A stretch of DNA of 64,000 bases, taken from the NCBI GenBank assembly GCA_029863605.1, contig JAOTVB010000001.1:348187-412186 (forward strand), in the 5' to 3' direction. A program made the position numbers and the translations under genes. The notes beneath the pieces were generated by a model. The model did no database searches and was not told where the DNA came from. It was given only the letters and a program-made list of their open reading frames with translations. This document shows, piece by piece, positions 57,961 to 64,000 of this stretch (positions within the stretch are counted from its first letter, which is position 1; each line of letters opens with the position of its first letter). Origin of the DNA: Myxococcales bacterium. GTDB lineage: Bacteria; Myxococcota_A; Polyangia; Polyangiales; Houyiibacteriaceae.

Positions 57961-58614
57961 TCAGGGCGAGGTCTCGGAGCGATAGGCATAGTAGTGCTTC
58001 AGCACTCGGCGCACGTAACGCTGGGTTTCTTGGTAGGGTGGAATCCCCTCGTACTTATCGACCGCGGCTTCCCCGGCGTTGTACGCCGCAACCGTCAGGA
58101 TCAAGTCTCCCTTGAAACGATTCGCCAGAATGCGCAGGTACCGGGCGCCGCCGAGGACGTTCTGTCGGACATCAAATGGATCGGAAACCCCCATTGAACG
58201 CGCGGTCTTGGGCATGAGCTGCATCAGACCCATCGCCCCTGCACGACTGACCACGGTCGGATTGAAGTTGCTCTCCACATGCATGACCGCGCGGATGAAC
58301 GAGTGGGGGAGTTGGTAGAGTTGCGCGGCCTCGTTGATCAGGTGGTCGTACCGCGTTTGGCGCTCGGGATCTTTGACCCTCCTCTTGGCGGTCTGTCTCG
58401 TCGTGCTTGGCGACTTCTTCGCACTGGCTCTGGTTCTAGACTTCTTGCTAGCCCGGACGACAACCTTGCATCGGCCGCCGTGCTCTCGGACGTTCGTGTA
58501 GTGCTGCGTCCCATCGGCGCGCTTGCACCGATAAATATCGGCGCCCGCAGACGCGGCGGTGCCCAGCGCAAAGCTGGCCACAACTACCACGAATGGCAAT
58601 GGAAATCGCATCAT
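57961..58614 (-). CDS. Lytic transglycosylase with DUF4124-like N-terminal domain
   Basis: 217 residues, start MMRFPLPFVVVVASFALGTAASA (signal peptide). A short DUF4124-like region (IYRCKRADGTQHYTNV) and a basic linker precede a Slt/MltC-type domain: catalytic Glu in AVMHVESNFNP, GAMGLMQLMPKTA, and AAYNAGEAAVDKYEGIPPY. It cleaves peptidoglycan glycan strands to 1,6-anhydromuropeptides in the periplasm. Next gene on the strand is the TPR protein. Confidence 0.93.
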   Translation of the reverse strand: MMRFPLPFVVVVASFALGTAASAGADIYRCKRADGTQHYTNVREHGGRCKVVVRASKKSRTRASAKKSPSTTRQTAKRRVKDPERQTRYDHLINEAAQLYQLPHSFIRAVMHVESNFNPTVVSRAGAMGLMQLMPKTARSMGVSDPFDVRQNVLGGARYLRILANRFKGDLILTVAAYNAGEAAVDKYEGIPPYQETQRYVRRVLKHYYAYRSETSP

Positions 58615-58703
58615 CACCGAGTGTATCTCCCACCGCCAAGACGCGCCAAAACCAGCCTCCCGCGCTTGCACCCCGCTTTCTTAGCCTCATCATTAGCCCT
58701 TCT

Positions 58704-59654
58704 ATGTCGTCCCTGAACTTTTTCGAGGGCCCAGAGAAGAAGCTCGAGCTGGTCGTTACGCCGGATTCGGCGTCGCTGCGTTCCCTCGGGGACGACACTT
58801 GGCGAGAGGTCGTGGGCGCTGCTGGGGCAGATGTCATCTCCGTGATGCGCAACGACCACTGCGACGCCTATCTTCTCTCCGAGTCGAGCTTGTTCGTCTT
58901 CGATGATTACTGCGTGATGATTACGTGTGGTCTGACGACTTTGGTCGACTCGGTGGCGCAATTGTTCGAGAGCATTTCGGCGGATTCGATCGCATTCCTC
59001 ATCTATGAGAGAAAGAACGAGCATTTCCCGGAACGCCAGCCGGCGACGTTTCTCGAGGATGCAAGGCGTCTGAAGTCCATGATCCCGGGTCGCGCACTTC
59101 GGTTTGGCGATGAGCACGGGCATTACGTGCAGATGTTCCACACGACTCGTGCGTTCGTGCCTGAAACGAACGACCCGACCATCGAGATACTGATGCACGG
59201 CATCGACGAGCGCGTTGCAGCGCAGTTTACGACGGCAGAGGTATCGGAGGATCGTTCGTTGGCGGTTGCGCTCGGCATCGACAGCCTGCTTCAGGGTTTC
59301 GACACATCAGAACATGTCTTCGACCCAGCCGGTTATTCCCTCAACGCGCTTCGGGACCAGGAATACTACACACTCCACGTGACCCCCGAAGATTTGGGGA
59401 GCTACGCGAGCTTCGAGACGAATCGCGATTTCGGGACTGATCTAACCGGGTTTGTCGGGGCCATCGTCGAGCTTTTCCAACCTCGGGCCTTCGATGTCGT
59501 CGCCTTCTTGCCGGTGGGCGAGCCCAAGCTGAAGCTGGCCGGTTATCAGTTGGGGGACCACGTAGTACGAAGCCTTGGGGGCTATCGCGTGACTTATCTC
59601 CAGTACTACATTCCTCCGAGTGGGCCCCGCGCCCCTTACGAACTACCCCTGTAA
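58704..59654 (+). CDS. S-adenosylmethionine decarboxylase, eukaryotic type
   Basis: 316 residues, close to the human enzyme (334). Eukaryotic-type features are all visible: FEGPEKKLE with Glu8 and Glu11, the self-cleavage site SESSLFVF (Glu60|Ser61; Ser61 would become the pyruvoyl group), Cys75 in ITCG, FDPAGYSLNAL with Ser212, and LHVTPED with His225. Bacterial SpeD proteins are normally much shorter (about 120-260 residues) with a different site. It makes decarboxylated AdoMet for spermidine. No speE or speA is in the window. Start chosen at the conserved FFEG motif. Confidence 0.92.
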   Translation: MSSLNFFEGPEKKLELVVTPDSASLRSLGDDTWREVVGAAGADVISVMRNDHCDAYLLSESSLFVFDDYCVMITCGLTTLVDSVAQLFESISADSIAFLIYERKNEHFPERQPATFLEDARRLKSMIPGRALRFGDEHGHYVQMFHTTRAFVPETNDPTIEILMHGIDERVAAQFTTAEVSEDRSLAVALGIDSLLQGFDTSEHVFDPAGYSLNALRDQEYYTLHVTPEDLGSYASFETNRDFGTDLTGFVGAIVELFQPRAFDVVAFLPVGEPKLKLAGYQLGDHVVRSLGGYRVTYLQYYIPPSGPRAPYELPL

Positions 59655-59710: not shown

Positions 59711-61318
59711 ATGCGAACCGAATGTGACTATCTGGTGCTGGGTAGCGGTGTGGCAGGCTTGAGCTTTGCGCTCGAGGCGGCACTGCACAGCAAGGTCACG
59801 ATGGTGACAAAGCGCAGCAGAACCGACTCGGCGACAAATTGGGCGCAGGGTGGGATTGCGGCCGTTCTCGATCCCAGCGACTCGTTTGAAGCGCATGTCG
59901 AAGATACGCTCAACACGGGTGGTGGCCTCTCGCATCGGGAGGTCGTCGAAATGGTGGTTCGGGACGGCCCGGGTCGGATCCACGAGCTCATGACGCTTGG
60001 GGCTCAGTTCAGCCGCGACGAAGAGAGCAAGTCGCTCGATCTGACGCGCGAAGGTGGACACAGCGCACGCCGCGTCGTTCATGCTGGAGACATCACGGGT
60101 GAAGAGGTACAGCGGGTGCTCATCGAGGCCGCAGCTGCCGCACCCAATATCGAGATCTACGAAGATCACATGGCGATCGACCTCGTCCAAGCCCAGGGCC
60201 CAGGTGGTTCGTCTCGAGTCGTCGGCGCCTACGTCCTCGACGAGACGACTGGCGACGTCAAGACCTTCCTTGCGAAGGAGACCATCCTCGCAACCGGGGG
60301 TGCTGGGAAGGTCTATCTCTATACTTCTAACCCCGATGTCGCGACGGGCGACGGCGTGGCTATGGCATATCGTGCCGGCGCCGAGCTTGCCAACATGGAG
60401 TTCTTTCAGTTTCACCCGACGTGTCTCTATCACCCGAAGGCAAAGAGCTTCTTGATCAGTGAAGCGCTCCGCGGAGAGGGAGGAATCCTTCGGTCTCGTG
60501 ACGGCACGGCCTTCATGGTCACGCATCACGAGATGAAAGACCTCGCGCCTCGCGACATCGTTGCCCGCGCCATCGACTACGAGATGAAACGCACGGGCGA
60601 AGAGTGCGTTTATCTAGATATGACGCACAAGCCGGCGTCGTACCTGGTCGAGCGCTTCCCCAACATTCACGCGCGGTGCCTTCAGTACGGTGTCGACATG
60701 ACCCGTGCGCCGATCCCCGTCGTGCCTGCGGCGCACTACATGTGCGGTGGAGTCGTGGTCGATGACGAGGGGCATACGACGCTTCGCGGTCTGTGGGCAG
60801 TTGGCGAGGTGACCTGCACGGGCCTCCACGGCGCGAATCGACTCGCATCCAACTCGTTGCTCGAGGGGCTCGTCTACGGTCACCGTACCGCGATCGCTGC
60901 GTGCGCGAGGTCTTCTGACCTCAACGAAGCGTTCGAGGCGGTTCCAGACTGGGATGTGGGCCAGGCCGTACCTAGCGATGAAGCCGTCGTGGTCACCCAA
61001 AACTGGGACGAGCTTCGGCGCTTCATGTGGAACTATGTAGGGATCGTTCGCACCGATCGGCGATTACGTAGAGCGGCCCGCCGCATTGCAATGCTCCAGG
61101 AGGAGATCCGTGAGTACTACTGGGCCCACTTGGTAAATCGCGACATGTTGGAGCTCCGAAACATTGCCGACGTTGCAGAGCTGATCATCCGTTGCGCCGA
61201 GGCTCGCAAAGAGAGTCGTGGGCTACATTACAATCTCGACTACCCGCATGCGGGCGAAGAGTGGCGCGGCGACACGCGCATCGCAAAGGGCATGCCTCCT
61301 CGCATCACGCACGAGTAG
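59711..61318 (+). CDS. nadB: L-aspartate oxidase
   Basis: 535-residue FAD enzyme, first step of quinolinate and NAD synthesis (aspartate to iminoaspartate). FAD motif YLVLGSGVAGLSFALEAA is at the N-terminus; TNWAQGGIAAVL, TREGGHSARRVVHAGD, QFHPTCLYHPK and VVPAAHYMCGGVVVD are the succinate-dehydrogenase-like family motifs, and ANRLASNSLLEGLVYG is specific. nadA and nadC are not adjacent. Followed after 69 bases by a TPR protein gene; a weak hairpin (61351-61369) lies in the gap. Confidence 0.95.
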   Translation: MRTECDYLVLGSGVAGLSFALEAALHSKVTMVTKRSRTDSATNWAQGGIAAVLDPSDSFEAHVEDTLNTGGGLSHREVVEMVVRDGPGRIHELMTLGAQFSRDEESKSLDLTREGGHSARRVVHAGDITGEEVQRVLIEAAAAAPNIEIYEDHMAIDLVQAQGPGGSSRVVGAYVLDETTGDVKTFLAKETILATGGAGKVYLYTSNPDVATGDGVAMAYRAGAELANMEFFQFHPTCLYHPKAKSFLISEALRGEGGILRSRDGTAFMVTHHEMKDLAPRDIVARAIDYEMKRTGEECVYLDMTHKPASYLVERFPNIHARCLQYGVDMTRAPIPVVPAAHYMCGGVVVDDEGHTTLRGLWAVGEVTCTGLHGANRLASNSLLEGLVYGHRTAIAACARSSDLNEAFEAVPDWDVGQAVPSDEAVVVTQNWDELRRFMWNYVGIVRTDRRLRRAARRIAMLQEEIREYYWAHLVNRDMLELRNIADVAELIIRCAEARKESRGLHYNLDYPHAGEEWRGDTRIAKGMPPRITHE

Positions 61319-63485: not shown

Positions 63486-64000
63486 ATGAGCGGATACCTG
63501 TTTACTTCCGAGTCGGTGACGGAAGGCCATCCCGACAAAATCTGCGATAAGATCAGCGACTCCCTGCTCGATGCATACATAGGCCAAGACACACGGTCGC
63601 GCGTCGCACTTGAGACCATGGTGAAGACCGGTTTCGTCGTGGTGGGAGGCGAGGTCACCTCGAAGGCTACGATCGACATCGCGGCGATCGTCCGCGACGC
63701 GATCACTGGAATCGGCTACACGGACTCCTCGATGGGCTTTGACGCCGCCACCTGCGGCGTCCTGACGGCCGTCGAGCAGCAGTCGCCTGACATCGCGCAA
63801 GGCGTGGATCGGGCCAAGGGGCAGGAGCAAGGCGCCGGAGACCAAGGCCTGATGTTCGGCTACGCCGTCGACGAAACGCGCCAGCTCATGCCAATGCCGA
63901 TCGACCTCTCGCACAAGCTCGCGAGGCGGCTGGCTCAAGTCCGCAAGCGTGGCGTCCTTCCCTGGCTTCGTCCCGACGGGAAGACCCAGGTTACAGTGGA
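63486..64000 (+). CDS. metK: S-adenosylmethionine synthetase (3' end outside window)
   Basis: The first 171 residues of Met[21 protein letters not shown] carries the ATP/methionine-binding TSESVxEGHPDK motif, followed by [31 protein letters not shown], and [16 protein letters not shown], the family's Gly-rich ATP signature. It makes AdoMet, the substrate of the decarboxylase encoded 4 kb upstream. Truncated only by the window end. Confidence 0.97.

Follow-up and report, generated by a model that had tools for sequence, protein, structure and literature searches.

The 64,000-nucleotide window analysed here (Myxococcales bacterium, GenBank assembly GCA_029863605.1, contig JAOTVB010000001.1, positions 348,187 to 412,186) carries, at positions 58704..59654 of the forward strand, a gene for a 316 aa class 2 (eukaryotic-type) S-adenosylmethionine decarboxylase (AdoMetDC) proenzyme. 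Class 2 AdoMetDC is usually found in animals and plants and is regarded as having arisen in eukaryotes and been borrowed by some bacteria; the window gene is of a kind already known from bacteria. It very probably specifies a working enzyme, the sole AdoMetDC of the cell, which replaces the short bacterial SpeD, feeds the spermidine synthase SpeE, and has been inherited vertically within its family from an old bacterial clade.

Identity, fold and active site of the window protein

The open frame consists of 316 codons and a stop. The single Pfam match of its product, PF01536 (SAM_decarbox), scores 214.8 bits against a cut-off of 22.2 and is full length, running from residue 5 to 301 of the protein and from position 2 to 342 of the 343-position profile. 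At E values up to 10 the protein matched PF01536 alone, with no match to the class 1 SpeD family, PF02675. It also matches the solved AdoMetDC enzymes of human (29% identity), trypanosome and potato. Its score against the NCBIfam equivalog TIGR00535, 158.9 bits, falls under the cut-off of 233.15, which indicates that the protein is divergent; however, NCBI sets this cut-off for automatic naming, and it defines no structural feature of the class; membership by Pfam, residues and fold is compatible with a score below it. The window gave no hits in Rfam and tRNA scans, and no signal above chance in promoter and terminator scans.

An AlphaFold model of the protein (pLDDT 86, pTM 0.88) matches human AdoMetDC over 297 residues (Z 38, 2.2 A). 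Its N-domain (residues 8-110) resembles the class 1b SpeD of T. maritima (Z 8.9), and its C-domain (residues 155-271) resembles the SpeD-like domain of human spermine synthase (Z 8.7). As modelled, the protein is a fusion of two SpeD-like domains with the class 2 architecture and one predicted cleavage site.

The preliminary description of this DNA had called a eukaryotic-type AdoMet decarboxylase at this locus and listed its catalytic residues. The full-length PF01536 match, the fold and the completeness of the listed set bear out the call, and the residue numbers also hold: in the alignment E8, E11, E60|S61, C75, S212 and H225 correspond to human E8, E11, E67|S68, C82, S229 and H243, the human row being the S68A mutant 1msv, in which Ala68 is engineered. 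Among 97 non-redundant bacterial homologues, E11, E60, S61, S62, C75, S212 and H225 are identical in every one, and E8 is replaced by D in two. The codons of Glu60 and Ser61 lie at 58881..58886 (+). Judging from these conserved residues and the alignment with human E67|S68, the proenzyme would cut itself between the two, leaving a 60-residue β chain and a 256-residue α chain capped by the pyruvoyl cofactor into which Ser61 would be converted. The two fused domains would build a single active site, to which the first would contribute Cys75 and the second Ser212 and His225.

The substrate-site residues of the window protein, F7, L58, E60, F206 and E229, are of the human type (human F7, L65, E67, F223 and E247). 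The human putrescine site (E15, K80, D174, T176, E178, E256, F285 and Y318) is likewise retained, as E15, D157, T159, E161, E238, F268 and Y294, except that K80 is replaced by I73. Position 13 is Lys in the window protein, Arg in the potato and T. brucei enzymes, and Leu in human; K13 puts a charge near the putrescine site. In the potato enzyme, positive charges in the putrescine-site region can replace putrescine. Given the two changes, Lys80 to Ile73 and Leu13 to Lys13, putrescine stimulation of the window protein is not predictable.

Genomic context and the polyamine pathway

PF01536 is a family otherwise typical of eukaryotes, and the same search matched none of 14 well-known control prokaryote genomes, which speaks for contamination of the assembly with eukaryotic DNA or for a recent gain from one eukaryote lineage. 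However, the surroundings and relationships of the gene make both vanishingly improbable. The source genome (4.2 Mb) is 100% complete with 0.24% contamination, and the gene, which has no introns, sits on a long contig among bacterial neighbours. Upstream and divergent lies a lytic transglycosylase (SLT) gene (57961..58671, -; PF01464), a context marker outside the pathway. The next gene downstream, on the same strand, encodes a nadB-like L-aspartate oxidase (59711..61318, +; PF00890, PF02910), a conserved neighbour in the genus. It is followed in the same conserved order by metK, the gene for S-adenosylmethionine synthetase (63486..63998, +; PF00438, PF02772), which leaves the window and has a complete ORF of 417 aa. 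The GC3 of the window gene is 0.716, and its GC and codon usage fall inside the range of its neighbours. The gene order of the genus reads RarA, Mrp, membrane protein, repeat protein and SLT on one side, and AdoMetDC, NadB, TPR protein and MetK on the other. It is retained in the genus members examined, save for one contig that ends early, and AdoMetDC-NadB(-MetK) is also kept in two more distant family members. The class 2 gene was found in 7/8 sampled members of the genus, the eighth being a fragmented, 90% complete assembly. In the trees described below, the window gene lies deep within a bacterial clade. Contamination and recent eukaryotic acquisition are refuted by synteny and tree together. 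The preliminary description had named beforehand what would count against its reading, and in each respect the opposite was found: the gene lies outside any one eukaryote clade, has the codon usage of its surroundings, and is carried in the same order by its relatives. A search of plasmids, phages and viral contigs found no relative of the window protein, and a mobile or viral origin was rejected.

The product of metK is the substrate of AdoMetDC, and the AdoMetDC-nadB-metK cluster may form a loose AdoMet/polyamine unit. Elsewhere, the genome encodes one SpeE above the TIGR00417 cut-off, and it contains a biosynthetic arginine decarboxylase, SpeA, above the TIGR01273 cut-off. A search of this 100%-complete genome for class 1 SpeD (PF02675) gave no match, and thus decarboxylated AdoMet (dcAdoMet) has no apparent source in it other than the window gene, its sole AdoMetDC. 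Since SpeE and SpeA are present, the window enzyme most likely supplies spermidine synthesis, as far as gene content can tell. It would decarboxylate AdoMet to dcAdoMet, from which SpeE would make spermidine (or aminopropylagmatine), using putrescine or agmatine derived from SpeA, and it would serve as a functional substitute for the short bacterial SpeD. SpeA was the only match to PF02784 in the whole genome; the same search gave no second match as a candidate for the standard diaminopimelate decarboxylase, LysA.

A changed substrate, or a role independent of polyamines, is improbable for the window protein, although precedents exist. Neofunctionalised class 1b SpeDs, the SpeD-derived ornithine/arginine decarboxylases, are known (PMC10407285), and a polyamine-independent role has been published for some AdoMetDCs, according to the title of Li et al. 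2019 as cited in PMC10407285. Such published roles, together with the lack of speE linkage of the gene in Myxococcota, count against the explanation preferred here. However, the human-type substrate-site residues (F7, L58, E60, F206 and E229) and the fact that the genome has a canonical SpeE and no other AdoMetDC argue for AdoMet decarboxylation in spermidine synthesis.

Distribution, phylogeny and direction of transfer

Among sampled genomes, PF01536 is present in 21/377 Myxococcota, 15/248 Elusimicrobiota and 69/291 Bdellovibrionota. The suggestion of a rare bacterial branch therefore stands in part: the trees recover a distinct bacterial branch, but great rarity is not borne out by these counts. 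Class 1 and class 2 forms occur together in 7 of the 69 class 2 Bdellovibrionota (Fisher p 6e-12) and in one of the 21 class 2 Myxococcota (p 2e-4), and class 1 is present in none of 22 further class 2 genomes, mostly Elusimicrobiota. This avoidance suggests that one form has taken the place of the other, both serving the same pathway. The single myxococcotal case, an 11 Mb genome of the same order (G144), carries a class 1b speD-speE pair in addition to its class 2 gene. Six Bdellovibrionota (G726, G757, G775, G796, G888 and G920) have, beside class 2 in the genome, frames of 350-390 aa with a weak class 1 SpeD domain, which are possibly SpeD fused to another domain.

The speE gene lies directly 3' of the class 2 gene at 72/75 Bdellovibrionota and 31/31 Elusimicrobiota loci (loci with enough sequence, duplicates included), and adjoins it at none of the 21 Myxococcota loci with room. 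A PF01564 match is present in all class 2 genomes checked; this family also takes in other aminopropyltransferase-like proteins, and the best match is weak in a few genomes (e.g. G357, G360 and G264). Two of these, G357 and G360, belong to a small-genome genus of the same family as the window genome and encode very divergent PF01536 homologues, which are candidates for a changed or polyamine-independent role.

Trees were built with 97 and with 47 bacterial sequences, eukaryotes being represented by three PDB chains (human, potato and T. brucei). In the unrooted larger tree, all 97 bacterial sequences fall on one side of a 99% branch, with human, potato and trypanosome on the other (bacterial clade 99/99), and the 47-sequence tree gives the same split. 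The window gene is nested within a genus clade (100/100) and a Myxococcota clade of 16 (100/98), which groups with Elusimicrobiota and some Bdellovibrionota (98/96). Transfer between bacterial phyla is likely, since a few sequences from Myxococcota sit elsewhere, among Bdellovibrionota. Comparison with plant, animal and bacterial homologues, the check proposed in the preliminary description, places the window gene in the bacterial clade and outside any one eukaryote lineage. Given the 99% split, the sequences indicate that the gene is inherited within bacteria rather than recently taken from one eukaryote lineage. Descent would have been vertical within the myxobacterial family, from one old bacterial class 2 clade common to Bdellovibrionota and Elusimicrobiota. 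Of the proposed lateral transfer, a recent gain from one eukaryote lineage falls away; what remains is an ancient transfer between eukaryotes and bacteria, with the direction from eukaryote to bacteria weakly favoured by a rooted tree.

That tree, of the N-domain, was rooted with class 1b. Its root falls among the eukaryotes, T. brucei branching first (83), and the bacteria form a derived clade (95). It comprises 109 columns and three long eukaryotic branches, and is treated as weak, long branches being prone to attract a distant outgroup. Class 2 probably passed once, anciently, from a eukaryote to bacteria and later spread among Bdellovibrionota, Elusimicrobiota and Myxococcota. Besides the rooted tree, the patchy bacterial distribution fits this history, and a passage of PMC10407285 that cites Li et al. 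2019 states a eukaryotic source for bacterial class 2. However, bacteria as sister to all eukaryotes would fit the unrooted tree equally. An origin of class 2 in bacteria, for example near Bdellovibrionota, with later passage to the eukaryotic stem, is unlikely, even though class 2 diversity among bacteria is deep, the gene forms a two-gene unit with speE in two phyla, and PMC10407285 places class 1b SpeD, with its two-domain fusions, in bacteria. The tree rooted with class 1b points in the opposite direction, and no intermediate was found among the bacterial sequences: class 1b and class 2, compared by HMM and by profile, give weak matches, in the correct register at the TCG region. The fuller proposal, that class 2 is an ancient bacterial enzyme belonging to a speD2-speE unit of Bdellovibrionota-related lineages, and that eukaryotes owe their essential AdoMetDC to an acquisition by their ancestor from a bacterium of this kind, is correspondingly doubtful. 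What the window gene can say about how the fused enzyme of eukaryotes arose hinges on the direction of transfer, and the rooted tree leans, if anything, toward eukaryote to bacteria.

Relation to known AdoMet decarboxylases

With about 100 diverse members from three phyla, in most cases standing in for class 1 SpeD and in many adjoining speE, the bacterial clade provides a sampling with which the direction of transfer can be tested, and the bacterial class 2 enzymes offer models of a human drug target. That some bacteria encode a class 2 AdoMetDC, attributed to a eukaryotic source, is stated in the passage of PMC10407285 citing Li et al. 2019. The enzymes of Li et al., as that passage presents them, are bacterial-encoded and of the same class as the window protein; documented here beside them are three phyla, 97 sequences and the linkage to speE. 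The extent in Myxococcota, Elusimicrobiota and Bdellovibrionota, the single clade and the speE linkage may be new.

Among characterised enzymes, human AdoMetDC (AMD1, class 2; PDB 1msv, 1jl0) shares with the window protein the fusion of two SpeD-like domains, the cleavage site, the catalytic residues and most of the putrescine site; the two are also of similar length, and their folds match at Z 38. It differs in sequence (29% identity), with human Lys80 and Leu13 corresponding to Ile73 and Lys13. The class 1b SpeD of T. maritima (PDB 1tlu, 1vr7) has the fold of the N-terminal half of the window protein (Z 8.9), and its SES and TCG motifs align; however, it is half the length, its chains have one domain, and its sequence similarity is barely detectable. 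The SpeD-SpeDC fusions of Victivallis, Omnitrophota and Desulfotignum (PMC10407285) likewise are single bacterial chains with two SpeD-like domains, of which the second stays uncleaved in Victivallis. By the account of PMC10407285 these fusions are class 1b homologues, whereas the window protein matches PF01536 only, and it is by this description that the two are set apart.
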